From Stigmatella ashevillena (GTDB lineage: Bacteria; Myxococcota; Myxococcia; Myxococcales; Myxococcaceae): DNA of 64,000 nucleotides. Every line of letters begins with the position of its first letter. Position 1 is the first letter of the stretch. Shown here one piece after another: positions 38,024 to 59,039 of the stretch. The position numbers were made by a program, and so were the translations under genes. Below the pieces are notes generated by a model. That model was not told the DNA's origin. It made no database searches and saw only the letters and a program-made list of their open reading frames with translations. The DNA lies in the NCBI RefSeq assembly GCF_028368975.1, contig NZ_JAQNDM010000002.1, forward strand, positions 7,930,425 through 7,994,424, read 5' to 3'.

Positions 38024-38063
38024 GGATGGCACCTTCCGCGCGCTTCGAGCTGGGGAGGCTGCC

Positions 38064-38450
38064 ATGGGAGTCCAGGTCGTTACAGGAGCGATGTTGCAGT
38101 GCAGCTTCGGCGCGGCCCCCGCCTCATTGGTGGTGCTGCCCACCAACAAGGTGATGGCCACGACGCCGGCGGCCAACATCATGGACAACAAGCCGATGGC
38201 GAACATCCTGCCTTTCGGCATGTGCATGTCGATGGCCAACCCCACCGTGGCCGCGGCCACGGCGGCGGCCCTGGGGGTTCTGACGCCCATGCCGTGTGTG
38301 CCCGCGACGGCGGCCCCCTGGGTCCCTGGGTGCCCGAAGATCCTGATCGGCAACATGCCGGCCGTGGACAGCAACTGCAAGCTGATGTGCAACTGGGGAG
38401 GGGTGATCCAGGTCGTCTCCCCCGGACAGGTCACGGTGCAAGATGGGTGA
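38064..38450 (+). CDS. PAAR-like protein (DUF4280)
   Basis: A 128-residue protein matching the DUF4280 family of PAAR-like spike-tip proteins. It has GAMLQCSFGAAPASLVVLP, the IMDNKPMANILPFGMCMSMANP core, TPMPCVPATAAPW and CKLMCNWGGVIQV. It carries several conserved Cys (in LQCSF, GMCMS, MPCVP, GCPK, NCKLMC) rather than the His/Cys set of classical PAAR. By analogy it would cap the VgrG needle and sharpen the T6SS spike or carry a toxin domain; none is fused here. ATG 38064 has GGGGAGG about 8 bases upstream. Its 3' end overlaps the next gene by 8 bases. Confidence 0.88.
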   Translation: MGVQVVTGAMLQCSFGAAPASLVVLPTNKVMATTPAANIMDNKPMANILPFGMCMSMANPTVAAATAAALGVLTPMPCVPATAAPWVPGCPKILIGNMPAVDSNCKLMCNWGGVIQVVSPGQVTVQDG

Positions 38451-39456
38451 GCCCGCCAAGGTTGCCGCTGTCCCCCTCGAACGGGGCCTCCTGAACACGG
38501 CGTTGGAGGCCGAGGCGCCCGACCTGGAGAGTTCGGATGAGCGGCTGGAGAAGGTCAACGGCCTCGTGTCCCGGAGCGATTATCTGGGGGCGGCCCGGGC
38601 CGCGGAGGCGCTGTTGCGCGAGGGCCTCTACGACGTGAGGCTGGTGGGCCCCTACGTGCTGGGCCTCTTCATCGAGGGCGGACTCCAGGCGCTGCCGGCG
38701 ATGTTTCACTCGCTCTCCAGCACCCTGCTGCGCAACTGGCAGTTCTTCGGGCCGAGTGAGCGCAGGGACATGTACGCCGACGGCAGTCTGCGTTGGCTGC
38801 TCAAGGTGCTCAACAAACACATCGAGCACCACGAGCGGATCAAGGATGAGACGTGGCAGCGTTGGGTCGCCCCGTCCAACCGCGAACCCCTGGAGCAGGC
38901 GCTCGCGCTCAGCGAGGAGATCTTCTCCTCGTTTGGCCAGGCGATGCCTCGCAACGGCTGCGAGGCGCCCTTCCGCCGCCTGACCCAATGGATGGAGGGA
39001 CACCTGATGTCCCTGCCCTCCGCGCAGCCTCCTGCCGCGCCCGAGCCGGAAGTTGAATCGGCCCGGGAATCCGAGAGGGCCGCCGTTCCCGAGAGGGAAG
39101 GGCCACCGCGCGCCGCGGCCCGCGAGGCGGGCCCCACGGTGCCGGTCTCACCTGCACTGGCGGAACTGATGCGCAAGCTGGCCGCGTTCGACACGCTCGT
39201 TCAGCGTCAGGACTTCCAGCGCGCCAGCGTGGTGGCGGCGGATGTGCTGGCGGTGATGGAACGCTTTGATCCGCGCGTGTATCTGCCTTCATTGTTCTCA
39301 CGGTTTTTTTCTGGACTGAGCACGCATGCGGAACAGGTGGAGTCGCTGCTGCAAGGCACCGAGTCCCTGTCCTTCCGCGCGCTCGATCAGCTCTACCGGG
39401 TGGATCTGGAGACCTTCCTGGCGTCCGGAGACGGGTCGTCCGGGGCAGAGGAGTAG
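38443..39456 (+). CDS. TssA/IglI-like T6SS protein
   Basis: A 337-residue soluble protein. An N-terminal helical domain (about 30-195; RAAEALLREGLYDVRLVGPYVLGLFIEGG) and a C-terminal helical domain (about 235-330) are joined by a Pro/Glu/Ala-rich linker. The layout and motif style resemble the proteins annotated as IglI-family or TssA/ImpA-like in divergent T6SS loci; TssA-type proteins cap the growing sheath and tube. No canonical ImpA_N motif is clear, so the TssA link is inference from position and architecture. It overlaps the PAAR-like gene by 8 bases and ends 4 bases before tssG. Confidence 0.6.
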   Translation: MGEPAKVAAVPLERGLLNTALEAEAPDLESSDERLEKVNGLVSRSDYLGAARAAEALLREGLYDVRLVGPYVLGLFIEGGLQALPAMFHSLSSTLLRNWQFFGPSERRDMYADGSLRWLLKVLNKHIEHHERIKDETWQRWVAPSNREPLEQALALSEEIFSSFGQAMPRNGCEAPFRRLTQWMEGHLMSLPSAQPPAAPEPEVESARESERAAVPEREGPPRAAAREAGPTVPVSPALAELMRKLAAFDTLVQRQDFQRASVVAADVLAVMERFDPRVYLPSLFSRFFSGLSTHAEQVESLLQGTESLSFRALDQLYRVDLETFLASGDGSSGAEE

Positions 39457-39460
39457 GAGG

Positions 39461-40321
39461 GTGGAAGGACCCCTGGAGCAGCGCATTCGTGAGCGCATTC
39501 GCAGCTTCGACATCCCCGCGCTGTTGGAGGTGCTGGGGACCTCTGGCTATGGGGACGCCGAGATCGAATATCGCAGCCACCGGACCACGTTGCACCAGGC
39601 CCACCTGGTTCACGACATCCAGTTCATCCCTCAGCCGCGCAAGCGCGTCGTCATCACGGTGAACGTCGGGCTGCTCAGCGCGCAATCCCCGTTGCCGTCG
39701 TTCCTCATGCGGGCGATGGATCAACTCGACCACGAGCGGCTCGAACGCTTCGTGGGGTTTTTCGACCACCGGTTGCTACAGGAATGTTTCGCCGGGCTCC
39801 ATCCGGAGCGTGACGAGGCGCTGTTGCCCGGGTGGCCAGAAGCGGCGCGGGACCGGTTGCGCCTGCTCAGCCCTACCTGTCCGAGCACCCTGCATTGGCT
39901 CTTCAGCAAGGCCTTTCCCGAGGCGGAGCTCTCGGTGCGCCGCGAGGCCCGCAAGCAGCGGCTGCCCGCACGCGAGATGCGGCTGGGGGCCAGCGCATTG
40001 GGCGAAGGGGACTCCATGGGGGGCTTTGCCTCCGTTGCCACGGGGGGCATCGAGGTGAAGATCCACTGCAGCGAGCCCCTGGCCAGCAGCGGGATTCCCT
40101 GGGCCGTGGAAGCACGCCGCCGGTTCGATGCGGATGTCTTGCCGCTGCTCTCCGACAAGGTGTTGATGCTCAATGTCGTGCTCGTGCTGCGCGAGCAGGA
40201 AAGCGTCTTGCGCATCGAGCGTGACAGCCACCTGGGCTATGATCCGCTGAAGGGGGTCCCCCCTCAGGCCCAGCATGTTCTTCTTTTCTCGGGAGATACG
40301 TCGAACCCCTCGGGCCCGTAA
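39461..40321 (+). CDS. tssG: TssG-like T6SS baseplate protein
   Basis: A 286-residue protein from GTG 39461 (AGGAGG just upstream). TssG/ImpH features are visible. The N-terminal RFRS-like segment is replaced by IEYRSHR, the central GLLSAQSPLPSFLMRAMDQ corresponds to the TssG GLxGPxGxLPxHL block, and FVGFFDHRLLQECFAG corresponds to the conserved FxDxFHHRLL segment. TssG forms the baseplate wedge with TssF, TssE and TssK. Sequence divergence from the family is large, so the call rests on these two blocks plus context. It is the last gene before the 139-bp promoter gap ahead of tssB. Confidence 0.7.
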   Translation: MEGPLEQRIRERIRSFDIPALLEVLGTSGYGDAEIEYRSHRTTLHQAHLVHDIQFIPQPRKRVVITVNVGLLSAQSPLPSFLMRAMDQLDHERLERFVGFFDHRLLQECFAGLHPERDEALLPGWPEAARDRLRLLSPTCPSTLHWLFSKAFPEAELSVRREARKQRLPAREMRLGASALGEGDSMGGFASVATGGIEVKIHCSEPLASSGIPWAVEARRRFDADVLPLLSDKVLMLNVVLVLREQESVLRIERDSHLGYDPLKGVPPQAQHVLLFSGDTSNPSGP

Positions 40322-40460: not shown

Positions 40461-41078
40461 GTGCCGATTCAGGACAGTCTGCCCAAATCTCGTATCACCC
40501 TCACCTATCGTACCAACCTCAGCGGGCAAGAAGAGGACGTCAAGCTTCCCTTCCGTGTCGTGGTACTGGGCGACTTCTCGAGTGGGAGTTCCACGGATCG
40601 CCAGACGGATCTGGAAGAGCGCAGGTTGCGCTCGGTCACGGGTTCCAACATCAACGAGCTGATGAAGGACATGGCCATGTCCCTCTCGTTCGAGGTGGAT
40701 GACAAGCTCAGCGCCGATGGCAAGGGGCGGATGGCCGTCAATCTGCCCATCGACCGGATGAAGTCGTTTCACCCGGATGAGATCGTCCACCACGTGCCCA
40801 AGCTGAAGGCGCTGTTGCTGCTGCGCAAGCTGTTGCTGGAGATGCAGGCGGACATCGACAACCGCAAGGACCTGCGGCGCAAGCTCTACGAGCTGTTCTC
40901 CAACAAGGAAGAGCTGCAGAAGCTGCTGGAGAGTGATCAGCTCAAGAGCTACGCGAGCATGCGCCTGCCCGCCACCGCGAAACCGCAAGCGTCGCAGCCG
41001 GCTCCGCCGGCCCAGACTCCTAAGGCCGCGCTCGTCGCCGACACCGTTCCCGCTGTGGCTCCCGCCAAGGCCACCTGA
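40461..41078 (+). CDS. tssB: T6SS sheath small subunit
   Basis: A 205-residue TssB (VipA/ImpB). Family blocks are PFRVVVLGDFSSG (29-41) and a conserved helix with FHPDEIVHHVPKLKALLLLRKLL (about 107-129). The C-terminal tail is Ala/Pro-rich and longer than usual (165-205). It pairs with TssC to form the contractile sheath in the cytoplasm. The start is GTG 40461 with AAGGAG 5-6 bases upstream. It follows a strong candidate promoter and is the first gene of the main T6SS operon. Confidence 0.95.
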   Translation: MPIQDSLPKSRITLTYRTNLSGQEEDVKLPFRVVVLGDFSSGSSTDRQTDLEERRLRSVTGSNINELMKDMAMSLSFEVDDKLSADGKGRMAVNLPIDRMKSFHPDEIVHHVPKLKALLLLRKLLLEMQADIDNRKDLRRKLYELFSNKEELQKLLESDQLKSYASMRLPATAKPQASQPAPPAQTPKAALVADTVPAVAPAKAT

Positions 41079-41119: not shown

Positions 41120-42613
41120 ATGGCTGACAATAAGAATTATCTGAAAGAGTTGTTCCAGGTTCGTGGCCTCGAGGTGCCCCTCCAGGCCCAGCCGATGGTG
41201 GGGACGGGTCTGGTTCCCGCCGCCCACAGCGATCTGCAGATGTCTGGGGACGAGCGCTTCATGTCCTCCCTGGCCGCGTTGCTCTACAACGTCGAGCCCA
41301 TCCAGGACGAGTCGGGGGAAGCCCGCTTCGACAAGGGCGAGGTGATGAAGGCCATCGCGCGCATCGATGGGCTCATCGAGGCGCAGATGAACGAGATCCT
41401 CCACGCCGAGGAGTTCCAGACGATGGAATCCTCCTGGCGGGGATTGGAGGACCTCGTCAACAACACCAACTTCCAGGCCGACATCACCATCGACATCTTG
41501 GATGTCGCCAAGGAAGAGTTGAGCGAGGACTTCGAGAAGAACTCGAGCAACATCTTCTCCAGCGCCCTGTTCGACAAGATGTACATCAAGGAGTACGACC
41601 AGTTCGGCGGCAAGCCCTATGGGGTGATGCTGGGACTGTACGAGTTCTCCGCCTCCCGCGCGGATCTCACCTGGCTGGAGCGCATGGGCAAGGTGGCCAA
41701 TGCCGCGCACTGCCCCTTCATCTCCGCGGCCAGCCCCAAGTTCTTCGACTGTGACAGCGTCGAGCAGCTCGAGTCGCTCAAGAACCTGGACGGCGTGCTG
41801 AGCCACCCGCGCTACAGCAAGTGGATGGAGCTGCGCGAGAAGGAAGAGGCGGCCTACATCGGCCTGACGTTGCCGCGCTACGTGGTGCGGCTGCCGTGGG
41901 ATCCGGACCGCAACCCCTGCGACGTGCTCAACTTCAAGGAGGACGCGGAGGGTGACTCGAAGAAGTACCTGTGGGGCAATGCGTCCTACCTGATGGGTCG
42001 CAACCTGGTGAAGGCCTTCGAGCAGTCGGGCTGGTGCCAGTCCATCCGTGGCCCCAAGGGCGGCGGGCTCGTCACCGGGCTGCCGGTGGACTCCTTCACC
42101 CTGCGTGGGCAGAAGATGATCCAGGCGCCGGTGGAGATCGCCATCCCGGACTATCGCGAGTACGAGTTTGCTCGCAACGGCTTCATCCCCCTGGTGCACC
42201 GCAAGGGCTCCAGTGAGGCGACCTTCTTCAGCACCCAGTCCATCAAGCGGGCCAAGAAGTTCAAGGACCCGAAGGATTCGGAGAACGCGCAGCTGGTCAC
42301 CAACCTGGCCTACACCTTCTCCATCACGCGGCTGGCGCATTACGTCAAGAGCATCGCGCGCGACAACATCGGGAGCACCGCCGACGCGGGCTACGTCCAA
42401 CGGCAGCTCGATGCCTGGCTGGCGGGATACATCACCACGGTGGTGAATCCGGATGACCTGACGTTGCGGCGCTTCCCTTTCAAGGCCACTCAGGTCATTG
42501 TGGAGTCCCGGCCCGGTGAGCTGGGCTGGTATGACTGCAAGGTGGCGGTCCTGCCGCACATCCAGTTCGAAGGCCTCAATGTCGAGTTGATGCTGGAGTC
42601 CCGCCTGGGGTAG
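41120..42613 (+). CDS. tssC: T6SS sheath large subunit
   Basis: A 497-residue TssC (VipB/ImpC), the usual length. Hallmarks are ILHAEEFQTMESSWRGLEDLV (about 90-111), DITIDILDVAKEEL, FDKMYIKEYDQFGGKPYGVMLG, a central LPRYVVRLPWDP, an ALxxG-type GNASYLMGRNLVKAF segment, and C-terminal FSITRLAHYVKSIARDNIG and VELMLESRLG. It forms the outer layer of the contractile sheath with TssB. ATG 41120 lies 41 bp after tssB with GAGGAG about 12 bases upstream. In systems with ClpV, the sheath is recycled through TssB/TssC; no ClpV gene is present in this window. Confidence 0.96.
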   Translation: MADNKNYLKELFQVRGLEVPLQAQPMVGTGLVPAAHSDLQMSGDERFMSSLAALLYNVEPIQDESGEARFDKGEVMKAIARIDGLIEAQMNEILHAEEFQTMESSWRGLEDLVNNTNFQADITIDILDVAKEELSEDFEKNSSNIFSSALFDKMYIKEYDQFGGKPYGVMLGLYEFSASRADLTWLERMGKVANAAHCPFISAASPKFFDCDSVEQLESLKNLDGVLSHPRYSKWMELREKEEAAYIGLTLPRYVVRLPWDPDRNPCDVLNFKEDAEGDSKKYLWGNASYLMGRNLVKAFEQSGWCQSIRGPKGGGLVTGLPVDSFTLRGQKMIQAPVEIAIPDYREYEFARNGFIPLVHRKGSSEATFFSTQSIKRAKKFKDPKDSENAQLVTNLAYTFSITRLAHYVKSIARDNIGSTADAGYVQRQLDAWLAGYITTVVNPDDLTLRRFPFKATQVIVESRPGELGWYDCKVAVLPHIQFEGLNVELMLESRLG

Positions 42614-42661: not shown

Positions 42662-43237
42662 ATGCCTCAATTCTCGCGTTCCCTGGATGTGTACCAGGGG
42701 TTCAACTTCAAGAAGGACAAGCAGGCACCTGTCGGCTTCATCACCGAGATGAAGGTCGGCGATGTGGCGCTGGTCGCGGACCAGACGACCCTGCTGGACC
42801 CGGAGCAACCGGGTAAGAGCCTTCCGGCGGTGGTCGGTGTTCTCTCTCATTACCTGTGGGAGACGGGCAACACGGACGCCATGTACCTCTCGATGCAGGT
42901 CTCGACCAACAACAAGCAGATTGTGGCGGCTGCGTTGCTGGGGACCCTGTCCAACGTCGAGGTGTCGTTCAAGTACACCATCTACGAGTACGATCCGCTC
43001 GTGAAGAAGTACTTCAAGTCGAACTACATCGACGCGTCGCTCAAGGGCATCCTGGAGAAGAACGGGGACCGGCTGAACCTGGAAGTCGCGGATGATGAGT
43101 CCAGGGAAGTGCAGGCGCCCAAGAACTTCACCCTCCAGATTGGCATCAAGCCGCACTCGGTGGAGCAGGCGATCAACCTGGCCACGGGGTCGAGCAAGAA
43201 CGTCGTCAAGAAGTGGGGTATCACCGAGGCCGCGTAG
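42662..43237 (+). CDS. Hcp-like T6SS tube protein
   Basis: A 191-residue beta-rich protein directly after tssC, the usual hcp position. There is no signal peptide. It carries VYQGFNFKKDKQAPVGFITEM, a central SLPAVVGVLSHYLWETGN and a C-terminal NFTLQIGIKPHSVEQAI. It is longer than classical Hcp (about 160-172) and lacks the classical Hcp start motif, so it belongs to a divergent tube family; position and size support the tube role. ATG 42662 has AGGAGGGGAGC upstream. It should stack as hexameric rings inside the TssBC sheath and be secreted. Confidence 0.7.
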   Translation: MPQFSRSLDVYQGFNFKKDKQAPVGFITEMKVGDVALVADQTTLLDPEQPGKSLPAVVGVLSHYLWETGNTDAMYLSMQVSTNNKQIVAAALLGTLSNVEVSFKYTIYEYDPLVKKYFKSNYIDASLKGILEKNGDRLNLEVADDESREVQAPKNFTLQIGIKPHSVEQAINLATGSSKNVVKKWGITEAA

Positions 43238-43262: not shown

Positions 43263-44516
43263 ATGCAGCGCCACAAGCTCGCGCGGGTCCGCTGGCAGGT
43301 TGGCCAGACGCTCCTTCCCGAGCACTTCCGCGCCCAGGACGAGGCGCTCTCGTCCGAGGCGAGGCTGCATGCCGAGCTGTCTGGGTTGCCTCAGGTCGGT
43401 ATCGCCTCCTTCGCGTGGAGCGAGGCGCTGCTGGCCGAGGGCAGCCTGTCTGTTTCCGCCCTAACCGCTGTCCTGCCAGGAGGCTTTCTGGTGGACGTGC
43501 CGGGCAATGCGGTCATCCCGCCGCTCTCGCTCGAGGCCACCGGCCGCGCGGAGGTCACCGTCCACCTCCACCTGCTGGATGAGACGCGTGGCGCGGAAGG
43601 GGTGCCGCTCTATGCGGATGAGCCGCCCAGCGTGCAGCGGTACCTGAGCCGGTTGCAGCTCTCCAGCGAGCAGTCCGTGGACCGGGCCCTCTCCTCGATG
43701 GAGCTGGTGGCCTTCTCCAAGAACCTCGAGGGTGCTTGGCGCCCCGCCGCCCGGAAGGTGCCTCCCCTGTTGCTGGTCGGGGCCAATCCCTTTCTCAACG
43801 AACTGCTGAGCGAGCTGGACCTGTTGCTCGAGAAGGCCCATGGCCAACTCCGCACCCTGTTGCTGGACAGCTATCAGCGCAGTGAGCGGCTGGCGAGCGC
43901 CCGGAGAACCCTCCTCGAGGTGCGCCGCTTGCAGTCCTTGCGCTCGGACATGCGCGGCGGCATCTGCCCGCACCCGTACTCCTTCTTCGATGCCCTGCGC
44001 CGGTTCTACTTCGAGGTCTGCTGCTACCTGGAATTGGAGCCCGATGGTGCCCTGCCCGCGTACCGCCACGATGAGCTGGGGGCTGGGCTGTGGGGGTGGA
44101 TGGATCTGCTCAACCGCGCCTTCCGTCCCGAGGACACGCGGCTCACCTACAAGCCCTTCGAGAGCAAGGAGGGGCAATTCGTCCTGACGCCCTTGCCCAC
44201 CCTGGACGAGGGGGTGCAGAGCGAGTTGTATCTCCTGGTGCGGAGCGAGGATCCCAGTCGGCCGCCCTCCATGGAGGGGGTGAAGGTGGCGAGCCCGTCC
44301 CGCCTGTCCTCGGTGCGTCGGCTGGCGCTTCGGGGCATCCCTTTCCAGCACGTGCCGCACCCCGCGTTTCCTCATGCCTTCGGGCCGGAGATCTCCTGGT
44401 ACAAGTTGTCGCTGGGTGAGGAGTGGCAGTACGCCTTGCGCGACAACGGCATGGCCTTCTATGTCACCCCTGCGCTCCAGGGGACCCAGGTCTTTCTCTT
44501 CTGGCGCAGGGCGTGA
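43263..44516 (+). CDS. tssK: T6SS baseplate protein TssK
   Basis: A 417-residue TssK (ImpJ/VasE). Recognisable blocks include the N-terminal VRWQVGQTLLPEHFRAQDE (the family has W-x-x-G-x-x-L-x-P-x-H-F-Q), LPGGFLVDVPGN, DLLLEKAHGQLRTLLL, HPYSFFDALRRFYFEVC, and the C-terminal ISWYKLSLGEEWQYALRDNGMAFY. TssK links the baseplate wedges to the TssJLM membrane complex. ATG 43263 follows AGGAAAG. The stop is 3 bases before tssE. Confidence 0.92.
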   Translation: MQRHKLARVRWQVGQTLLPEHFRAQDEALSSEARLHAELSGLPQVGIASFAWSEALLAEGSLSVSALTAVLPGGFLVDVPGNAVIPPLSLEATGRAEVTVHLHLLDETRGAEGVPLYADEPPSVQRYLSRLQLSSEQSVDRALSSMELVAFSKNLEGAWRPAARKVPPLLLVGANPFLNELLSELDLLLEKAHGQLRTLLLDSYQRSERLASARRTLLEVRRLQSLRSDMRGGICPHPYSFFDALRRFYFEVCCYLELEPDGALPAYRHDELGAGLWGWMDLLNRAFRPEDTRLTYKPFESKEGQFVLTPLPTLDEGVQSELYLLVRSEDPSRPPSMEGVKVASPSRLSSVRRLALRGIPFQHVPHPAFPHAFGPEISWYKLSLGEEWQYALRDNGMAFYVTPALQGTQVFLFWRRA

Positions 44517-44519
44517 GCG

Positions 44520-44912
44520 ATGGCGCGCCCCTCCTTCCTCGATAAGTTCACCAGCAACTGGCAGCGCTCGGAGGACGAGGGCGAGCTGCAGCGCGTCTGT
44601 CAGAACATCGAGGCCGTGCTCAATACCAAGGAGGGTTACGGGTACTTCGTCGAGGGCTTCGGGCTGGGGCGCTACACGGAGAAGTTCGGCACCCGGGACC
44701 TGATGAAGACGCTGTCCGAGGAAATCCTGCACTCGGTCGAACGCCATGAGCCGCGTTTGCAAGAGGTGGAGCTGACGCTGCGGGGCCAGGACTCCGGATT
44801 GTGGCTGCACTTCGTCTTGACTGGCTCACTGCTTGGCTCTCCCTGTACGCTGCGGGTTCTCTTTCACACCATCAGCGGCCAGGTGCGGGTGGAAGAGGAC
44901 GAGGAGGGATGA
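44520..44912 (+). CDS. tssE: T6SS baseplate protein TssE (gp25-like)
   Basis: A 130-residue gp25/GPW-like protein. Conserved parts are the N-terminal FLDKF, VCQNIEAVLNTKEGYGYFVEGFGLG and HEPRLQEVELTL, with the usual Glu-Pro-Arg-Leu (EPRL) motif. TssE is the sheath-initiating baseplate wedge protein. ATG 44520 is 3 bases after tssK and the stop overlaps vgrG by 4 bases (ATGA). Confidence 0.92.
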   Translation: MARPSFLDKFTSNWQRSEDEGELQRVCQNIEAVLNTKEGYGYFVEGFGLGRYTEKFGTRDLMKTLSEEILHSVERHEPRLQEVELTLRGQDSGLWLHFVLTGSLLGSPCTLRVLFHTISGQVRVEEDEEG

Positions 44913-46561
44913 TGGAGAGCACTCTCGGCGAACGGCTGTCCATGTCACTCACGTTGACCGTGGGCGGCAACGTCCACAAGGTCATTGCCGGGCACATCAA
45001 GCGCTTCTCGCTGGAGCTGTGGAGCTGGGGGCTGGACGGCGAGATCGAGTTCCTGTTGACGGATACCCACGGCCGTGGCGGCCAGCAGAAGGACGACCTG
45101 CTGGCGGACTTCATCAAGCCGGATCTGATCGCGGTGACGCTCGAGCTGAAGGCCTATCTGCCGGAGACCTCGGCCAGGCCGAGCCAGACCGCGTTGAAGG
45201 TCCAGGGGTTCGTCACCGAAAAGACGCTCGTCGAGGAGTCCGTTTCCACCGGGCAGAGCAGCCTCATCCTCCATCGCCGGTATGGCTTCCGTTTCCAGGA
45301 TGCCGCGCGGCTGCTGTGGCGCCAGCACTATCCCTGTGCCCTGTACACCGCGAAGACGGTTCGGGATGTGCTGGAGGAGCACAAGGGCGAGAAGATCGCC
45401 CTCTCCTATGATTGGGATGCGGGCCTGGGGGCCTCGCATCCGATGATCTTCGTGGGGTTGGATCCGCGGGGCGGTGCCAGCTTCTACGACTGGGTGCTCT
45501 GGTACGTGCACACCCACGCGGGGGTCTTCACCTACGACTACGCGGCGCAGGGCTACAAGTTCACCGGCGTCAAGGCCGCCACCGGGACGCCGCTGCGCTT
45601 CCATGAGGACAATCTGGACCGGCTGGAGGTCCTGCTGCCCGAGGTCATCCGCCACGATGTGATGGTGCTCAACGCCGTGGCCGAGGGGCCCCAGCGTCAG
45701 CCCGTGACGCAGCAGCAGGCGGTCTCCGGGATCCGCCAGGATGTGCTGCTGTGCACCCCCATCGCGGACGAGGTGCAGGCACGGGTGGATCTGGAGACCG
45801 CACGCCTGAAGGCGCGAGGCCCGGAGCTGGAGCTGACCTGGCGCTCCTTTCCCGAGAAGGCGTTCACGCCCGGCACGTTGGTGAAGCTGCCACAGGGCGA
45901 TGCCTGGAGCGCCGCGGGCATCGCGAAGGATGCGGTTCTCCGGGTGCGCAGCCTGTCCTTGTCCGGCGAGGGCTCTCCCGAGATGGAGAACGAGGTGTAT
46001 GGCGATGACTACACCCTCTTCTCCGACTTCCGGATGAGCACCCGGTTGGAGCCGAAGGACGAGCCGGCGGTGGATCTGCCCGCCTGGCAGGCGCCCCCCT
46101 ATCCTCGTTACGTGGAGGGGCTCATCGTCAGCGAGCAGGGTGAGGACAAGGACGAGACCTGGCAGGCCTACACCGATTCGGCGACATCGCTGGATGACTA
46201 CAAGGTGAAGGTGCCGCTCTTCGCGAATCAGATCATCCCCGCGCCCTTCAACCCCAACCTGCTCCCCGGCCATTTCTACTTCCCCGCGTACAAGGGGGAG
46301 CGGGTGCTCGTGGCGCTGGATTTCAAGCGCGCGTGGATCAAACGTTTCCTGGATTGGCGCACGGGCGTGCGCATGCCGCAGGACGGGCAGGGGGTCCAAC
46401 TGATGGTGGGAAAGACCCCCGAGAGTGGGACCGCGCTCAAGCACTACTACGCGGATGACAAGCCCGTGTTTCTGATGCAGCGGACCCATGCCAAGGATAC
46501 GCAGAAGATCCAGCTAAACGAGGGCACGCTGCTCATCCAGGTCAAAGAAGAGCCATCGTGA
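44909..46561 (+). CDS. vgrG: VgrG spike protein lacking a long needle
   Basis: A 550-residue VgrG (TssI). Residues 1-350 correspond to the gp27-like hub (LTLTVGGNVHKVIAGHIKRFSLELW, FQDAARLLWRQHYPCALY, SFYDWVLWYVHTHAGVFTYDY, VIRHDVMVLNAVAEGPQ). Residues of about 400-500 are the gp5 OB-fold (PRYVEGLIVSEQGED, YKVKVPLFANQ, GHFYFPAYKGERVLVALDF). The protein stops soon after the OB-fold (LNEGTLLIQVKEEPS), so the usual C-terminal beta-helix is missing and is apparently supplied by the next gene. ATG 44909 overlaps the tssE stop by 4 bases. It is a clear paralogue of the minus-strand VgrG at 55559-57481. Confidence 0.9.
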   Translation: MMESTLGERLSMSLTLTVGGNVHKVIAGHIKRFSLELWSWGLDGEIEFLLTDTHGRGGQQKDDLLADFIKPDLIAVTLELKAYLPETSARPSQTALKVQGFVTEKTLVEESVSTGQSSLILHRRYGFRFQDAARLLWRQHYPCALYTAKTVRDVLEEHKGEKIALSYDWDAGLGASHPMIFVGLDPRGGASFYDWVLWYVHTHAGVFTYDYAAQGYKFTGVKAATGTPLRFHEDNLDRLEVLLPEVIRHDVMVLNAVAEGPQRQPVTQQQAVSGIRQDVLLCTPIADEVQARVDLETARLKARGPELELTWRSFPEKAFTPGTLVKLPQGDAWSAAGIAKDAVLRVRSLSLSGEGSPEMENEVYGDDYTLFSDFRMSTRLEPKDEPAVDLPAWQAPPYPRYVEGLIVSEQGEDKDETWQAYTDSATSLDDYKVKVPLFANQIIPAPFNPNLLPGHFYFPAYKGERVLVALDFKRAWIKRFLDWRTGVRMPQDGQGVQLMVGKTPESGTALKHYYADDKPVFLMQRTHAKDTQKIQLNEGTLLIQVKEEPS

Positions 46562-46603
46562 AGGCGGGGGGCTGGCGGTTCCCCACCGAGGAGGTGAGAA
46601 GCC

Positions 46604-47206
46604 ATGGGCAAGCTTGTCTGCACCGTTGAACTGGACAAGGAGAAAGGCGTCACCGTAAAGGTGGAGAATGCCGACGCCCAAATCACGCAGACGCTGGTGA
46701 TGAACGGCGAGAGCATCACCATCACGGTGGCGGGCTCTTCGGAGACGAGCACCGTCGTCCAGAAGCAAGACAGCGTCACCATCACCTGCAAGGACTTCAC
46801 CGTGGACGCCACCGGGACGCTCACCCTCAAGTCGAAGGACGCTTCGAGCTGGACCAGTCAGGCCACGCTCCAGCTGGAGAGCACCCAGGACATGACGTTC
46901 ACCTCCAAGGCCAAGCTCACCCAGAGCGCCACCTCGGACGCGAAGCTGTCTTCCAATGCGAATGTCGGCGTGGAGGCAGGCTCCCAGTTGGATCTCAAGG
47001 GCATGCAGACCAGCCTCACGGCCTCGGCCGGTGACAACAAGGTGGAGGGCGTCACCTTGACGATGTCCGGGAAGACGCAAGCGGAGTTGTCCTCCGCGAT
47101 GACCAAGGTGGCCGCGCAGGGCAAGCTCGGATTGGAGTCCTCGGGCCTCGCGGAACTCAAGGGCTCGCTGACCACTGTCAGCGGCTCGCTCGTGAAGTTG
47201 GGGTAA
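46604..47206 (+). CDS. Detached VgrG-type beta-helix needle protein
   Basis: A 200-residue protein made almost entirely of short alternating beta-strands rich in Thr, Ser, Val and Leu, with repeated pieces such as VTITCKDFTVDATGTLTLKS, AKLTQSATSDAKLSSNANV and GVTLTMSGKTQAEL. This is the composition and 8-10-residue periodicity of the gp5/VgrG C-terminal triple beta-helix. It has no signal peptide. It follows vgrG by 42 bp with a strong GGAGGTGAG site. The best reading is that it trimerises below the VgrG OB-fold to form the needle that DUF4280 caps. The split into a separate polypeptide is unusual; the function is inferred. Confidence 0.7.
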   Translation: MGKLVCTVELDKEKGVTVKVENADAQITQTLVMNGESITITVAGSSETSTVVQKQDSVTITCKDFTVDATGTLTLKSKDASSWTSQATLQLESTQDMTFTSKAKLTQSATSDAKLSSNANVGVEAGSQLDLKGMQTSLTASAGDNKVEGVTLTMSGKTQAELSSAMTKVAAQGKLGLESSGLAELKGSLTTVSGSLVKLG

Positions 47207-47212
47207 GGGGCG

Positions 47213-48862
47213 GTGAGCGACTCGTCGGAACGGATCTACCAGGACTACCTGAGCGAATTGGATGCGCTGGAACGCTTCCGGCAGCGCTTCCTGGAGTCCC
47301 ATCCCACCGTGCCGTTGGACCGGGAGGATCCGCATGTGCGGCGCCTCATCGAGTCCATGGCCTTCTTCTCGGTGCAGACCCGCCTGGCCACGCAGCACAA
47401 CCTGCGCTCGACGTGGCTGCGCCTGTTCTCCTCCTTCTTCGACTTCTTGCTGAAGCCGCTTCCCTCGGTGGCCCTGGTCCAGGCGCTGCCCACCGAGAAG
47501 ATGACGGAGACGCTGGTTCTCGCCCGGGGGACCGAGCTTCGGCTTGCCCCCGCGCATGGAGGCGCGGGGAGCTTCCGCACCCGCCGCAACCTGCGCGTCC
47601 TGCCCATCTCCATGCGGGGCACGGAAGTGCTGCGCATGGCCGATGGCCGCTACCGGCTGCTCCTGCACTTCGAGTCCAGTTTCCCTCGGAGGGATCCGGT
47701 GGGGCTGTTCAGCCTGTACGTGCGCCACCTGGACGAGTACAGGCCCTCGTTGGCCGTCTTTCACGCGCTGCGCAAGCACCTCCAGCAGCTCAGCGTGGTG
47801 TATGACGCCCCGGCCAATGAGTCCTCTCAAGGCATGCCGTGCGAGTACTCCTTCGGAGAGACCCCGGCCGAGCTGGAGGACGCGGGAGATTTCGAGCACC
47901 CCCTGCAGCGCGTGCGCGCCTTCTTCCAGATGCCCGAGCAGGGCCTCTTCCTCCATGTGGCGGTGCCCTCGCACCGCAAGGAGTGGACCCGCTTCAGCCT
48001 GTGCCTGGACCTGGACAAGGCCTGGACGGTGGGGCGCTCGACCCACCCGGACTTCTTTCAGCCCTTTGTCGTGCCGGTGGAGAACCTCAAGTCCGAGCCC
48101 GCTCAGCCCATCGTCGCCGATGGCACCCGCTCGGAGTACACCATTCGCGGCATGACCGCCGGGAGGGACATGCATCTGCATGCCGTCACCGGGGTGTACG
48201 TGCTGGGCCGTTCGGGGCGCACGCCCATGCGGCCGGCCTTCCTGCCGGGAGAGGGGCCCAGCTACGAGCTGGAAGAGTCGCTCGATGAGGAGATGCGTCC
48301 GCGCCACAGCCTGCTGGTGCGCCTGCCCGAGGCCCTCCTCGAGCCGAAGAAGCTGCTGGTGGAAGCCCTCTGGTACCAGCCACGGTTCGTTGCCGAGGCC
48401 ACGGGCCGGTTGAGTGTCTCCACCCCGGGGCGGCATGTGGAGGGGCTCAAGTGGCAACTGATGGGCCGGCTCGAGCCGCACCGTGAGAGCGCCCTGCGCA
48501 ACGACGTGGCGGGGCTGACCCGGTTGCTCTCCTGGAAGGTCAAGTCCACGCTCGAGCGCAACGAGCTCGCCGCGTTGTTGAACTATCTCGGCACCCCCGC
48601 CGAGGAGCCCTTCCGGCGCGTCATTCCCTGGATCCGGGAGCTCAAGGTCACGGTGGCCCCGGATGGGGCCTTGCGCGGCTCGGGACTGTTACATGTCTAT
48701 GAGCTGTTGCTGGAGCCGTTCGATGCCAGCGCCGAGTCCTTGGTGGCCTGCTTTCTGGAGCAGGTGCTCTTGCTGCTGGAAGCATGGAATGGCGAGGCTT
48801 CCGTGGTGCTCCGGCCCACGGTGGCGGGGGGTGGCGCCTTCCCGTTGAAAGCATCCTCATGA
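47213..48862 (+). CDS. tssF: T6SS baseplate protein TssF
   Basis: A 549-residue TssF (ImpG/VasA). Conserved elements are the N-terminal YQDYLSELDALERFRQRFLESHP, DPHVRRLIESMAFFSVQTR, VALVQALPTEKMTETLVLARGTEL and central FFQMPEQGLFLHVAVP. The C-terminal LNYLGTPAEEPFRRVIPWIRELK replaces the usual RxG/GxxRG-type block. TssF dimerises with TssG in the baseplate wedge. GTG 47213 is 6 bp after the needle gene, and the stop overlaps tssL by 4 bases (ATGA). Confidence 0.9.
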   Translation: MSDSSERIYQDYLSELDALERFRQRFLESHPTVPLDREDPHVRRLIESMAFFSVQTRLATQHNLRSTWLRLFSSFFDFLLKPLPSVALVQALPTEKMTETLVLARGTELRLAPAHGGAGSFRTRRNLRVLPISMRGTEVLRMADGRYRLLLHFESSFPRRDPVGLFSLYVRHLDEYRPSLAVFHALRKHLQQLSVVYDAPANESSQGMPCEYSFGETPAELEDAGDFEHPLQRVRAFFQMPEQGLFLHVAVPSHRKEWTRFSLCLDLDKAWTVGRSTHPDFFQPFVVPVENLKSEPAQPIVADGTRSEYTIRGMTAGRDMHLHAVTGVYVLGRSGRTPMRPAFLPGEGPSYELEESLDEEMRPRHSLLVRLPEALLEPKKLLVEALWYQPRFVAEATGRLSVSTPGRHVEGLKWQLMGRLEPHRESALRNDVAGLTRLLSWKVKSTLERNELAALLNYLGTPAEEPFRRVIPWIRELKVTVAPDGALRGSGLLHVYELLLEPFDASAESLVACFLEQVLLLLEAWNGEASVVLRPTVAGGGAFPLKASS

Positions 48863-49808: not shown

Positions 49809-52800
49809 GTGGGGCCGCAGCCGCTGAACGGGGTGGGACAGGCACTGAGTGTGGCAGATCCAACCAAGGTTCTTGATGCGGCGGGCAAGGCGCTCGACGC
49901 GGGGGCCCCGGTGGAGGGCGCGAACGCACCGGCGTCCGAGGGGCTCTGGCTCACGGTGAGCCCTTACCTGAAGTGGGTACTGATCGCGCTGCTCGTGGCG
50001 CTGCTCGTGGCGCTGCTCGTGTTCGCCGGGGTGAAGCTCTATCAATGGTGGCGCCGCCGCCGCCCGGCCACGGGCGCCTCCAGCGGCCCTCCGCCCATGG
50101 CGTCCAACCGCCTGCTCCAGGTGCACCGGGCTTTTCTCTCCGGGTTGCCCCTGGCCAACCGGGCCGCCGTGCTGGATCTGCCCACCGTGGTGGTGCTCGG
50201 CCCCGCGGGCAGTGGCAAGACGTTGCTCATTGGCCTGGATGTCGACTGGCAGCGTCAGGCCCGGCAGTTCCTGCCGAGCCACACGTCGGACGCGTTGCTT
50301 CAGGTGTATTTGGGCCCGGACTGCGTGGTGCAGGAGCTGTCGGCCCCCCTGCTGGAAGATGAGACTCTGCAGGCCCGCAGCGCCCTGCGCCGGATGTGGA
50401 GCAAGTGTTTCAACCGCCGCCAGCGGGGACTGGCCGTCCTCACGCTGGACATCCGCTGGCTCGCGGAGACTCCGCCGGATGAACAGCGGCGCATGGCGCA
50501 GTTGCTGCGCGGCAAGCTCAACCTCATCTCCGAGGCTTGTGGGGGGCCGGTGGAGACGCGCCTGTGCCTGACCCACATGGATGGGCTGGAGGGCTTCGAG
50601 GACTTCGCCCGGCTGCTGCGGCAGCATGGGGTGGCGAGATCCTTCGAGATTCCCAAGCACGGGGAAGAGTCCCGCCTGTCCACGCTGCTGGAAGGACAGG
50701 AGCAGTACCTGGCCCTGGGGCTCACCTCGCTTCCGGTCGATGCCTTCGAGCGCCTGGAGCGCTTCTATTCGCAGGGGGGCCGCTCGTTCGCGGCGCTGGG
50801 CCGGTTTGTCTCCTCGCTGCTGGAAGGCGATACCCTCTCGTTCAAGCCGCGGCTCACGCGTGTCTACCTGTCCTCTCCCACGCCCGAGGCGCGCGCCAGC
50901 GGCACGCTCTCGGTGATGCCCGAGGAGGGAGGCACCCAGGCGCCGCGCAGCCTCTATCTGCGCATCCATCGGCGCCGCGCCGCGTTGATTGCGCTGGTGG
51001 GCTGTTTGCCGGTGCTGGCCGCATACGCGAACTTCTACGTGCTGCTGGGCGATGCGCAGGAGCAAGTGGTGCGCTTCGAGAGCACGGTCGCGCAGATGAA
51101 GGAGCAGGGGCTGGAGGGAAGGGGAGAGGTCGTCGAAGAGCAGGTGAACGAGGCGGCGAATTCCATCAGCCACCTGTGGGGTGCGGCGCGCTGGTGGCCG
51201 CCCCTGAACTCCAGCTTCCCAGGCGAGATGTTGGATGTGCGCCAGCGGCTGGCTCGGGGGATCCGGGAGAGCCACCTTCGGCCTTCGCTCGAGCACTGCC
51301 GCAAGCATCCTCAGGAGTGCCGTCCCGAGCAGGTGGTCTACCTGCTGGCCGCCCTGCACGCGTCGAACAAGAATGGGCTCGGCAACTTCGTGAACTCCAG
51401 CATTCAACCCCGGCACTCCCGGAGGTGGAGCGACAATCAGCCCAGTGCGGCCGGGACGGCGGAGGTGGCTGCCGCCGAGCAGAACCGTACGTGGATCACC
51501 GCGCTCGAGCTGCGCGAGCCGCTCGTGGCCACCTACGTGCTCGCCAGCGATGATCCCTGGGAGCGCAATCCGCCTTGCCGCCGGGGGGCCGCGCAGGTGG
51601 CCCGTAACGTGGAGACAGAGTGGTCCTGCTGGCCCTATCCGGACCGGCTGACGGTCGAGAGTCAGCTCAAGCCCTGGTTGGATCACCTGCTGTTCCTCCG
51701 TCAGGCGCTGGAGGCGGGTCCCAAGGGTTTGGCCCAGCTCGATCAGCGGCGGGAGGAGCGGGAGCGGTTAGAGGCTCAGCTGGCGGATCTCGATGTCTAT
51801 GCCTCGCTGTCCACCGTGCTCAACCTGATCGACACCGCGGGACTCCAGACCAATACACGTCACTTCCAGGGCATCGAGTCCACGGTCCAGGTGCTCGACT
51901 GGCTGCGAACGAACCGGGATACCCTCGCCACGGTGTTGGACATGGAGGAGGAGGCCTACTCCGGTCTCCTGGCGGTGGAGAAGATGGGGCCCTCGGAGCT
52001 GCTCACGCGGGATGGGCTCTGGCTGACGGGCAACAAGAAGGGCCCTTACCGGATCGAACTGTTGCAGCAGTCCTTCGAGTTCCGTCCTCCCCAGCTCTCG
52101 CGCGAGCTCTTGCAGTCCCTGCTCGATACTTATGAGAAGAGCGGCCGGTTGATGATGGGGCCCAATGAAGCCATCCGCCCGGGGCAGTTGATCCTGAGCC
52201 GGACGCCTTTCGAAACCGACCTCAAGCCGCTGGTGGATGACTTCACCCAGCGGTTGAAGAACGTGCAACTGCCGACCGATGAGTCCGCGAAGCGCGAGGA
52301 GTATGTGCAGAAGCGGGTGGGCGTGTTCGCTCAGGGCTATCGCGAGGGGCTCTTCTACAGCGTTCGCAACTACCGCTTTGGCGCGCCGCGCAAGGTGCTG
52401 TTCGATGAGCTGGCGCGGCTCACCCAGCCCTCTTCTGACCAGGTGGACATGCTGCGCGACGTGGCCCTTCGGGCCAGCCTGGAGCCGTTGGAGGGGCCCT
52501 ACTATGAGCCGCTGCGCAACGCGGTGGCGCCCTTCCGGCCCATCGTCCAGCTCATGGTCACCGACAAGAGCGGCTTCTATGCCGCGCTGGCCCCGTACCA
52601 TGCCTTGATTGCCCAAATGCATGATGAGCTGGACGCGGGGGCCAAGCGCGGCCAGGCCAAGGGGGACAAGGGTGGAGCGGAGGCCCCGGACAAGGGCAAA
52701 GAGGCTCTGGCGCCTGGACAAGAAGCCCCTGCCGCGGGAGCTGGAAGCGAAGCGGGTTCCGCGGAGCTCGTGGACATGCTCACGCCGCTGGAGCGGGTGG

Positions 52801-53660
52801 CGCTCTCGATGCTCCTCGAGGAGGAGGGCTCCTACCTGCGCAAGGCGCAGGAGTGGCTGGATCAGCAGGGCCTCTCGGGAGAGCTGCGGCAGCCCTTTCT
52901 CGAGCCCTTCTTGCAGGTGCAGCGCCTGGGCAAGCAGGAGCTGGAGAGCACCCTGACGCGGCAGTGGGAAGAGGCCTCCGGACGCATGCTGCGGTCCATG
53001 CTCGAGCGCTATCCTTTCAACCCCGCCTCTCAGCAGGATGTGGACCCCGGCGAGCTGGAGGTGCTGCGCCGCAAGGATGGCGCCTTCTGGATCTTCGTGA
53101 ACCAGATGTTCTCCCGGGTGTGCGTGGAGCGGGGAACCCAGTGGTCCCTGCGAGGGCCCTTGCGCGAGAAGCTGGTGCTGCCCGAGCAGATGCTGCTCAC
53201 CCTCAGCCGGTTGGCCCGGCTGGCGACGCTGTTGTGGGATGAGGAGGGCCGCTCCCGGCCGTTGATGCTGAAGGTGCAGCCCCAGCCCCTGCCCACGCCG
53301 CCCATTCCGGGCGTCTTCGTCACGATGTCCTCACTCAAGTGCGGGAAGACGACCGCCTACGGCTTCAATCAGATTCCCACCTGGCAGGATTTCCCCGTGA
53401 ACTGGTGGGACCAGCAGGTGTCCTCGATCGTTCTGGAGCTGCGCTCCCCTACGCGGGATGCCCCCCAGTACGTGTCCCTGCCCTGGAATCGCTCGGCGTG
53501 GAGCTGCTTCCGCCTGTTCGAGGAGGCGGTGCTCACCACGGACCAGCGCCGGCAATGGAGTCTTGCATTGCAGGGGAATGCCGGAGACAAGCGCGGGCTG
53601 GAGATCAGCTTTGGGCTCAAGGGTGAGCCCTGGGTTCCTTTCCGGGAGGTTCCGCGGTGA
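49809..53660 (+). CDS. tssM: T6SS membrane-complex protein TssM (IcmF)
   Basis: A 1283-residue TssM. Membrane helix 1 is at about 53-77. The cytoplasmic NTPase-like domain has Walker A GPAGSGKT (131-138) and WLAETPPDEQ-type segments. A further membrane helix is at about 389-410, followed by a very long periplasmic part with the late TssM beta-domain (TMSSLKCGKTTAYGFNQIP... and the final FRLFEEAVLTTDQ, SFGLKGEPWVPF). An Ala/Lys/Glu-rich low-complexity insert lies near residues 935-980. The intact Walker A suggests nucleotide binding is retained. GTG 49809; the stop overlaps tssJ by 4 bases (GTGA). Confidence 0.93.
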   Translation: MGPQPLNGVGQALSVADPTKVLDAAGKALDAGAPVEGANAPASEGLWLTVSPYLKWVLIALLVALLVALLVFAGVKLYQWWRRRRPATGASSGPPPMASNRLLQVHRAFLSGLPLANRAAVLDLPTVVVLGPAGSGKTLLIGLDVDWQRQARQFLPSHTSDALLQVYLGPDCVVQELSAPLLEDETLQARSALRRMWSKCFNRRQRGLAVLTLDIRWLAETPPDEQRRMAQLLRGKLNLISEACGGPVETRLCLTHMDGLEGFEDFARLLRQHGVARSFEIPKHGEESRLSTLLEGQEQYLALGLTSLPVDAFERLERFYSQGGRSFAALGRFVSSLLEGDTLSFKPRLTRVYLSSPTPEARASGTLSVMPEEGGTQAPRSLYLRIHRRRAALIALVGCLPVLAAYANFYVLLGDAQEQVVRFESTVAQMKEQGLEGRGEVVEEQVNEAANSISHLWGAARWWPPLNSSFPGEMLDVRQRLARGIRESHLRPSLEHCRKHPQECRPEQVVYLLAALHASNKNGLGNFVNSSIQPRHSRRWSDNQPSAAGTAEVAAAEQNRTWITALELREPLVATYVLASDDPWERNPPCRRGAAQVARNVETEWSCWPYPDRLTVESQLKPWLDHLLFLRQALEAGPKGLAQLDQRREERERLEAQLADLDVYASLSTVLNLIDTAGLQTNTRHFQGIESTVQVLDWLRTNRDTLATVLDMEEEAYSGLLAVEKMGPSELLTRDGLWLTGNKKGPYRIELLQQSFEFRPPQLSRELLQSLLDTYEKSGRLMMGPNEAIRPGQLILSRTPFETDLKPLVDDFTQRLKNVQLPTDESAKREEYVQKRVGVFAQGYREGLFYSVRNYRFGAPRKVLFDELARLTQPSSDQVDMLRDVALRASLEPLEGPYYEPLRNAVAPFRPIVQLMVTDKSGFYAALAPYHALIAQMHDELDAGAKRGQAKGDKGGAEAPDKGKEALAPGQEAPAAGAGSEAGSAELVDMLTPLERVALSMLLEEEGSYLRKAQEWLDQQGLSGELRQPFLEPFLQVQRLGKQELESTLTRQWEEASGRMLRSMLERYPFNPASQQDVDPGELEVLRRKDGAFWIFVNQMFSRVCVERGTQWSLRGPLREKLVLPEQMLLTLSRLARLATLLWDEEGRSRPLMLKVQPQPLPTPPIPGVFVTMSSLKCGKTTAYGFNQIPTWQDFPVNWWDQQVSSIVLELRSPTRDAPQYVSLPWNRSAWSCFRLFEEAVLTTDQRRQWSLALQGNAGDKRGLEISFGLKGEPWVPFREVPR

Positions 53661-54139
53661 GTGCGTGCGTGTACCGGTTGACGGCCCTGGTGGCGGTGGT
53701 GCTGCTGGGGGCGTGTGGACCGAGCCGGATCAGTCTCAGTGTCAAGTCGCCGCCCGGGACCAACCTGGGTCGGCCGATGTACATGTTGGTCCGCCAGGTG
53801 GATCCCAAGCAGTACGCCAATGAGGAGTACTCCGAGGTCGCCTCCAAGGTCGGCTCGCCGGACAAGAGCGTGTTGCAGACGGCGGTCCTCTACCCGGGGA
53901 CCATTCAGCGCTTCCAGTTGAAGGCGCCGGAGGAGGGCTCCTTGGCGGTCTCCTTCTTGTTCACCGCCCCGGACGGCAACTGGCAGTTGCTGCTCAGCCC
54001 GCCCATCCCCACCGCGGTGGACGTGGAGCTGACCGTCAGCCGCATCATGAGTGACTCGGTTCCTCCAGCCATCCCCTCGGAGATGCCTGGCGCACCGGCT
54101 CCCAAGGCGCCTGAGGCACCGAAGCTGCCCGGTGCCTGA
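53657..54139 (+). CDS. tssJ: T6SS outer-membrane lipoprotein TssJ
   Basis: A 160-residue lipoprotein (signal MSACVYRLTALVAVVLLGAC, mature Cys20). The beta-sandwich contains the TssJ-type RPMYMLVRQVDPKQYAN and VLYPGTIQRFQLKAPEEGSLAVSFLFTAPDGNWQ segments, then an Ala/Pro-rich tail. TssJ anchors TssM to the outer membrane. The gene overlaps tssM by 4 bases and is the last plus-strand gene of the T6SS operon, converging on the coiled-coil gene with 17 bp between stops. Confidence 0.9.
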   Translation: MSACVYRLTALVAVVLLGACGPSRISLSVKSPPGTNLGRPMYMLVRQVDPKQYANEEYSEVASKVGSPDKSVLQTAVLYPGTIQRFQLKAPEEGSLAVSFLFTAPDGNWQLLLSPPIPTAVDVELTVSRIMSDSVPPAIPSEMPGAPAPKAPEAPKLPGA

Positions 54140-57481: not shown

Positions 57482-57540
57482 GGCGGAGACCTCTCCTCGT
57501 GCCAGCAAACAGCCATCTTCAGGGATGGGCGGACGCTCCG

Positions 57541-58989: not shown

Positions 58990-59039
58990 GGAACTCCCAA
59001 ACGGCGCGGGATTTCTCAAAACGTGAAAACAAGTAAACG

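Follow-up and report, generated by a model that had tools for sequence, protein, structure and literature searches.

A probable two-chain spike encoded by separate hub and needle genes in a type VI secretion cluster of Stigmatella ashevillena

Introduction

Is a VgrG-like gene that stops short of the needle a broken gene, or one part of a type VI secretion system (T6SS) spike made from two chains? The question is raised by a stretch of 64,000 nucleotides from Stigmatella ashevillena (contig NZ_JAQNDM010000002.1, positions 7,930,425 to 7,994,424; hereafter the window, whose numbering we use), in which a T6SS cluster carries a spike hub gene followed on the same strand by a separate gene for a 200-residue, β-rich protein. 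We find that the split is genuine and conserved in relatives, and that the two proteins very probably form one spike, resembling in its arrangement the spike of Francisella.

The canonical T6SS spike protein, TssI/VgrG (TIGR03361), is a single chain, in contrast to the pair described here. In phage T4 the OB-fold lies with the needle on gp5, the lysozyme between them, and gp5 is cleaved, its β-helix being a separate chain in the virion; the break there is made by proteolysis. In the window, by contrast, the OB-fold is on the hub.

A closer precedent, overlooked by the original prediction that proposed the split from the sequence of this locus, is the PdpA-VgrG spike of Francisella (PDB 6u9e, 6u9f, 6u9g), in which hub and needle likewise lie on separate genes. 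Francisella VgrG has 164 aa and is reported to lack hub and OB-fold, both of which PdpA is proposed to supply (PMC5924787), and a 2023 review describes the VgrG-PdpA complex as the central spike (PMC10653695). The architecture is known from Francisella; what is new is the range of organisms. A literature search, judged by titles and the opening lines of abstracts, turned up no paper that describes such a spike from another organism, most subscription journals being beyond its reach.

Hub and needle are separate genes

The genes and their junction are:

44912..46561, plus strand: predicted spike hub, PdpA-like (gp27-like domain, OB-fold and short β tail), 549 aa, without needle
46562..46603, plus strand: gap of 42 nt with ribosome site and second in-frame stop (46595-46597)
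46604..47206, plus strand: predicted spike needle of triple-β-helix type, separate chain, 200 aa, ATG start

The hub open reading frame (ORF) begins at an ATG at 44912, overlapping the TssE stop codon (TGA, 44910-44912), and ends at a TGA at 46559-46561; the original prediction had begun it at 44909, a coordinate in need of correction in an ORF that is itself real. The good ribosome site reported for the needle gene is there, a GGAGG whose end lies 9 nt 5′ of the start codon. Hub and needle share a reading frame in the S. ashevillena genome, and the extra TGA at 46595-46597 lies in that frame just 5′ of the needle start; simple readthrough therefore does not join them.

A first search for relatives covered 98 genomes, that of S. 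ashevillena included, and found the needle in 25 of them; 29 neighbourhoods were fetched. Hub and needle are adjacent on the same strand in 25 of these 29 loci, with 12-61 nt between the hub and the aligned needle start. The adjacent pairs comprise 9 with a frame 0 junction, 11 with +1 and 5 with +2, and TGA, TAA and TAG each occur as the hub stop codon. Because the junction is found in all three frames and with all stop codons, a single frameshift error is no explanation, and the frameshift joining the two ORFs that the original prediction had envisaged as a possible flaw did not appear. Of the four non-adjacent loci, three (L055, L057, L058) have the needle 3′ of TssK and the hub next to TssF on the other strand, and one (L059) has no hub on the fetched stretch. 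Measured against four relatives, the ratio of nonsynonymous to synonymous substitution rates (dN/dS) is 0.09-0.30 for the hub and 0.12-0.21 for the needle, and the needle gene is under purifying selection. We conclude that the split is genuine and no error.

The hub is related to Francisella PdpA

We modelled the hub with AlphaFold2 from 34 sequences (pLDDT 83.4) and trimmed a low-confidence stretch, at about residues 481-500, before structure comparison. Matches to seven canonical T6SS VgrG chains stop at hub residues 480-489, and only a short tail of predicted strands follows at the C-terminus (residues 496-546), in agreement, so far as the model shows, with the original observation that the VgrG stops just after the OB-fold.

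Two structure searches rank PdpA first. With Foldseek the three PdpA-VgrG entries (6u9e, 6u9f, 6u9g) come out on top (E 3e-26 to 9e-25), and with VIA-align the PdpA chains of 6u9g, 6u9f and 6u9e fill the top three rows (Z 23.5-23.7). The best canonical VgrG, 8gra, follows about 1 Z lower (22.5), ahead of the remaining VgrGs, extracellular contractile injection system (eCIS) spikes and phage hubs. Canonical VgrG has the same gp27-like/OB fold (Z to 22.5) and similar β-helix repeats, and T4 gp27/gp5 (1k28, 1wth, 2z6b) shares the hub fold at Z 17-18. Searched against all PDB sequences, the profile of 34 hub relatives gives PdpA as its sole match at E<=10 (E 7.1e-07). The predicted fold is thus the widely shared one of a gp27-like hub carrying an OB-fold, and by sequence the protein falls on the PdpA side. 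In PdpA the alignment begins only at residue 161, so that PdpA is about 160 residues longer at the N-terminus than the hub in the window.

The hub has no match in Pfam at E<=1, in NCBIfam, VgrG models included, at E<=0.1, or in PHROGs at E<=1, and none of its 34 family members matches Pfam at E<=0.01. Nor does its profile match, at E<=10, any of 20 canonical VgrGs from the family to which S. ashevillena belongs. These are 20 ORFs of 715-901 aa from 24 loci, the other four loci having no ORF inside the length and E-value limits. The S. ashevillena genome itself has a canonical VgrG with an open frame of 725 aa. A phage or plasmid origin of the hub was considered and rejected, as tblastn at E<=0.001 matched no phages or plasmids; pattern scans of IMG/VR gave no confirmed relative of hub or needle.

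The needle resembles the C-terminal β-helix of spikes

The needle was described in the original prediction as pure Thr/Ser/Val. It is indeed rich in Thr (14.5%) and Ser (13%), with Val at 9%; "pure" is an overstatement for a protein that also has 10.5% Leu, 9% Ala and 9% Lys, while Pro, His, Arg and Tyr are absent. At 200 aa it compares with 164 in Francisella VgrG. Its AlphaFold2 model, built from 32 sequences (pLDDT 94.2), has six strands and then a long chain left unpaired in the monomer, as would be expected of an intertwined trimer.

Spikes rank first among the folds nearest to this model by VIA-align (an eCIS spike, 7aef_q, Z 8.3, and Francisella VgrG, 6u9e_B, Z 8.1), and the needle profile matches the C-termini of VgrGs and spikes in the PDB (8gra, 1.9e-05; 7b5h, 5.9e-05; 9gtr, 0.0021). 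In profile-profile comparison, needle positions 86-182 fall on the C-terminal repeats of the 20 canonical VgrGs with probability 80, against a probability below 1 for each of two controls, the hub and the 191-aa protein encoded between TssC and TssK. Taken as single sequences, with the database size set to 1000, 7 of the 20 match the needle profile at E<0.001; none of 100 shuffled sequences matched it at E<=10. DUF2345, the VgrG C-terminal domain, is matched at E<=0.01 by 7 of 32 needle family members; the needle in the window reaches 14.5 bits against a gathering score of 30.7. Other Pfam matches, single-member scans included, are weak and mixed. The original prediction had reckoned with a match to an unrelated fold, and none stood out among the needle's matches.

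Hub and needle models together tile single-chain spikes end to end: 9qgm_8A of the PVC, with hub to 441 and needle from 441; 6j0m_A, with hub to 440 and needle from 446; and Streptomyces 9gtr_q, with hub to 456 and needle from 459. Several of the eCIS spikes compared (PVC, AFP, Anabaena All3320, Algoriphagus, Streptomyces) are tiled in this manner. They differ from the pair in the window in having hub and needle on one chain and in belonging to extracellular systems.

Hub and needle co-occur, and are fused in one relative

Among 195 genomes of the phylum, 53 have the hub and the identical 53 have the needle; one of them (G187) lies outside the family of S. ashevillena. In a fifty-fourth genome (G147) the match to the needle is weak and partial, at 100 residues.

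We extended the comparison by a scan of public genomes, taking one genome per species and finding loci that contain one of two short peptide patterns. It gave 45 hub loci, mostly in Myxococcaceae and Archangiaceae. Further loci come from metagenome-assembled genomes (MAGs) of Myxococcales (L132, L146, L153), from the Thermodesulfobacteriota groups Syntrophus (L112, L120), Desulfobacteraceae (L113), Desulfurivibrionaceae (L115) and Desulfoluna (L138), and from Methylococcales (L124, L139, L147, L150), Psychromonas (L145) and Planctomycetota (L149). All eleven loci outside Myxococcota are contigs of MAGs, which makes their phylum dependent on binning; in the tree the contig assigned to Psychromonas clusters with Desulfurivibrionaceae. 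Since related gene pairs are encoded in genomes assigned to three phyla, Myxococcota and the metagenome-assembled Thermodesulfobacteriota and Pseudomonadota, the two-chain design is not confined to Francisella.

The needle gene lies directly 3′ of the hub in 32 of the 45 loci, elsewhere in the cluster in 6 and fused to the hub in 1, a separate needle gene being kept in 38. The remainder are five hubs that are longer by 106-107 residues at the C-terminus and lack a neighbouring needle gene, among them that of the Planctomycetota locus, on a contig of 7.8 kb with no needle, and one locus without a needle on the fetched stretch. The 32 loci of at least 17 kb, in some of which an absence may reflect the end of the fetched stretch, have a separate needle in 31 by profile and, by phmmer with the window's proteins as queries, TssF in 32, TssG in 32, an IglI-family protein in 31, TssE in 27, a DUF4280 protein in 25 and a TssJ/IglE-like protein in 23. 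A second cluster type (L111, L114, L116, L119, L126, L152, with L055, L057 and L058) places the needle between TssK and TssL and the hub beside TssF on the opposite strand.

In one Myxococcales MAG (L146) hub and needle form a single protein of 770 aa, fused at the same boundary at which they are split elsewhere. The needle follows directly after the hub boundary and matches profile positions 2-199 (E 4e-43, profile built without L146); the codon aligned with the needle start is CAC, and the 20.8 kb stretch holds no separate needle gene. A quick tree places this locus next to L132, in which the two genes are split, within a clade whose members have hub and needle adjacent. From the natural fusion and the co-occurrence in 53 of 53 genomes it follows that hub and needle belong together.

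A proposed spike assembled from two chains

We suggest, with high confidence, that three hubs and three needles make one spike, held non-covalently at the β tail of the hub and capped by the DUF4280 protein encoded in the same cluster:

38016..38450, plus strand: DUF4280 PAAR-like protein, presumed needle cap (IglG-like); PF14107, E 2e-36; start codon uncertain

In this picture the gp27-like ring and OB-folds of three hub chains would serve as the adaptor at the tube end. The 200-residue protein, in three copies, would intertwine as a triple β-helix needle, which would seat without covalent linkage on the short β tail at the hub C-terminus, and the needle tip would be covered by the DUF4280 protein. 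The counterparts in Francisella are PdpA (hub), VgrG (needle) and IglG (presumed cap). Computation shows the gene split and its conservation, the kinship of the hub to PdpA and of the needle to spike β-helices, and the natural fusion; the trimeric stoichiometry, the seating, the capping and the firing of the machine are inferred. The idea of one spike made from separate hub and needle proteins, put forward in the original prediction, agrees with the fusion, the co-occurrence and the presence of the DUF4280 gene, and the adjacency or fusion that it suggested looking for in relatives is seen in 25 of 29 fetched loci and in 32 adjacent pairs and one fused among the 45 of the scan.

Several results weigh against this proposal. 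The needle was modelled as a monomer although a trimer is presumed; the model has no Foldseek match at E<=0.001, and its VIA-align matches are modest, the best at Z 8.3 with unrelated β proteins at Z 5-7. In the three tiled chains the needle reaches Z 5.8-7.8. An earlier, narrower needle profile also matched designed WD-repeat proteins (E 0.001-0.006), so repeat-driven chance matches follow not far below, and a further 12 of the 20 canonical VgrGs match the needle profile only weakly. The PdpA sequence match spans just positions 17-207 of the hub profile. Finally, the fusion is known from one contig of one MAG, whose position in the tree joins two long branches.

A second hub gene, close to the first, raises the further idea, an addition to the two-chain spike, that alternative hubs are interchanged on one needle, the needle being constant and the hub variable and cargo-carrying:

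55559..57544, minus strand: second hub paralogue, 661 aa; hub profile match G000:C2:7986304-7987905

Hub 2 is 38.8% identical to hub 1 and has no needle of its own, and the genome has a single needle gene beside its two hub genes. The sequence ahead of the hub 2 tail resembles the end of hub 1, so that hub 2 keeps the putative needle-seating stretch, and adds about 106 C-terminal residues of helical, repetitive look with a weak apolipoprotein match. A match of the hub 2 kind is found in 49 of the 52 hub-bearing genomes of the family (474-561 bits, frames of 643-1247 aa); the letters of the tail were read in the window and in L149, its length was measured in the five tailed hubs, and elsewhere the assignment follows score and frame length. 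Against interchange, hub 2 may be a separate effector carrier, outside this machine; we regard interchangeable hubs as a tentative and rather unlikely addition. Were it true, the hub rather than the needle would be the exchangeable, cargo-bearing part.

Directly downstream of hub 2 lies a gene for a 457-aa coiled-coil, apolipoprotein-like protein (54157-55530, minus strand), kept beside hub 2 in four other hub 2 loci (L090, L093, L094, L095) and possibly a hub 2 cargo. On the other side, a 492-aa protein (57541-59019, minus strand) adjoins hub 2 and has a 62-residue match to PF05943, the TssC N-terminal domain (E 1.2e-11).

The original prediction had instead placed the variation in the needle, through exchange or changes of length. 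The 37 near-complete needles measure 166-201 aa from the aligned start, and differ between groups: 192-201 aa in Myxococcaceae and Archangiaceae and 186-196 in the Methylococcales loci, against 166-173 in the Syntrophus, Desulfobacteraceae, Desulfurivibrionaceae, Desulfoluna and Psychromonas loci. One needle gene (L153:5823-7388) encodes 521 aa, the needle domain being followed by a long Gly/Ser-rich, hydrophobic C-terminal extension, perhaps a cargo attached to the needle. Shorter needles in some groups and one extended needle speak for tunable needles; against this, lengths are near-constant within the family, S. ashevillena has one needle gene, and the loci examined hold no tandem needle genes, second needles with fetched neighbourhoods each sitting in a separate cluster. 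If either part is duplicated it is the hub, and exchangeable or length-tunable needles are very unlikely.

It is highly improbable that the 200-residue protein is some other β-rich protein, an effector or adhesin that follows the hub by chance. Its low-complexity repeats and the weak, mixed single-member Pfam scans would allow such a reading, which is opposed by the fusion, by the co-occurrence with the hub, by the matches to VgrG C-termini and by the rank of spikes among its nearest folds. That the pair is an ordinary VgrG disrupted by frameshift or premature stop, as the shared frame in S. ashevillena might suggest, can practically be dismissed given the three junction frames and three stop codons in relatives, the extra in-frame stop, the purifying selection on the needle, its placement away from the hub in other clusters and its retention as a separate gene in 38 of 45 loci.

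The T6SS cluster around the spike genes

The proposed two-chain spike is encoded within a run of plus-strand genes in the order 559-aa protein (from 36344), DUF4280, IglI-family, TssG, TssB, TssC, 191-aa protein, TssK, TssE, hub, needle, TssF, TssL, 108-aa protein, TssM and IglE-like lipoprotein. Besides those given above, the assigned genes are:

38443..39456, plus strand: IglI-family protein; NF041244, 280.9 bits, cut-off 100
39503..40321, plus strand: TssG-like baseplate protein; PF06996, E 2.7e-05, 24.0 bits against a gathering score of 24.6; start uncertain
40461..41078, plus strand: TssB sheath subunit; TIGR03358, 178.7 bits, over cut-off
41120..42613, plus strand: TssC sheath subunit; TIGR03355, 502.5 bits, over cut-off
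42662..43237, plus strand: 191-aa protein in the Hcp/IglC place, between TssC and TssK, its identity suggested by position alone
43263..44516, plus strand: TssK; TIGR03353, 352.6 bits, over cut-off
44520..44912, plus strand: TssE (gp25-like); PF04965, 43.3 bits, over gathering score; TIGR03357 below cut-off
47213..48862, plus strand: TssF; PF05947, 95.5 bits, over gathering score
48856..49497, plus strand: TssL/DotU; PF09850, E 3.4e-20; start approximate
49809..53660, plus strand: TssM-like, with Walker A motif GPAGSGKT; TIGR03348, 65.2 bits, below cut-off
53657..54139, plus strand: TssJ/IglE-like lipoprotein; NF041245 (IglE), E 1.8e-08, 34.5 bits, below cut-off of 75

The IglI-family protein is the sole match to its model over cut-off in the genome; another match, at 37 bits, is found close to a canonical T6SS. 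The DUF4280 protein scores 73 bits against the IglG model NF041248, below the cut-off of 200. The closest PDB chain to TssC is Francisella IglB, by a small margin (373.9 bits against 360.7 for the next), and the PDB matches of TssK are canonical TssK, IglD being absent at E<=1. The 191-aa protein has no family match and no tube protein (Hcp, IglC) among its PDB matches; assigning it to Hcp by profile against the PDB was tried and rejected, the matches being mostly antibody-like and due to chance.

None of the nine matches to the ClpV model in the S. ashevillena genome falls in the window (7.93-7.99 Mb). The sole match over cut-off is at 4.82 Mb, 3.1 Mb from the cluster, near a canonical single-chain VgrG. 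This VgrG beside ClpV (G000:C2:4819307-4825275) is presumably part of a canonical T6SS.

Relationship to the Francisella system

The Francisella system (T6SSii) was reported from Francisella alone in a 2016 survey (PMC4793230) and was described in 2022 as standing in a class of its own (PMC9600919). It is resembled by the S. ashevillena cluster in the two-chain spike, in the IglI-family protein, in a DUF4280 protein whose IglG match stays below threshold, and in the absence of ClpV. To these may be added the IglE match, likewise below threshold, and the TssC that is marginally closest to IglB. Its TssB-TssC-x-TssK order also mirrors the four-gene iglA-B-C-D operon (PMC10653695; roles of the igl genes in Table 1 of PMC5924787).

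Other components set the two apart. TssE and TssF are recognisable in the window, whereas TssE, TssF and TssG of Francisella stand without assignment in a 2018 table (PMC5924787), and the window has a second hub gene. Its TssM keeps the Walker A motif, in contrast to Francisella PdpB, described as being without one (PMC5014421), and so departs from T6SSii on this point. Its TssK matches the canonical model strongly and finds canonical TssK chains in the PDB, where Francisella IglD is reported to be remote from other TssKs (PMC9600919). Because of the recognisable TssE and TssF, the Walker A motif and the canonical-type TssK, we regard the cluster, on the sequence comparisons made here, as T6SSii-like in spike, IglI, IglG-like cap and lack of ClpV and as no member of T6SSii.

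A 2012 paper named the DotU proteins of Stigmatella, Desulfonatronospira and Haliangium as the closest to that of Francisella (PMC3326028), a published hint with which the kinship of the spikes fits. One might conjecture that Francisella T6SSii belongs, as a single branch, to a widespread class of environmental T6SSs with two-chain spikes, present in Myxococcota, Thermodesulfobacteriota and Pseudomonadota and hinted at by the tailed hub on a Planctomycetota contig, and that alternative hubs (hub 1 and the tailed hub 2) share one unvarying needle; we consider this a doubtful extrapolation. The cluster nevertheless supplies, for a class reported from Francisella alone, a comparable system with a two-chain spike, readable TssE and TssF and a second hub, and its myxobacterial relatives are culturable predators in which the assembly of the two-piece spike and the reason for the split could be tested.

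Neighbouring genes

The 559-aa protein that heads the cluster (36344-38023, plus strand) has a partial AMP-binding match, and a homologue is present in 29 of the 45 hub loci, those of Methylococcales included. Upstream of it, a gene on the same strand (28288-36339) encodes a protein of 2683 aa made up of long repeats. Within this gene, three 237-aa ORFs on the antisense strand are spaced exactly 981 bases apart (29977, 30958, 31939), a spacing that suggests a near-identical tandem repeat of 981 bp.

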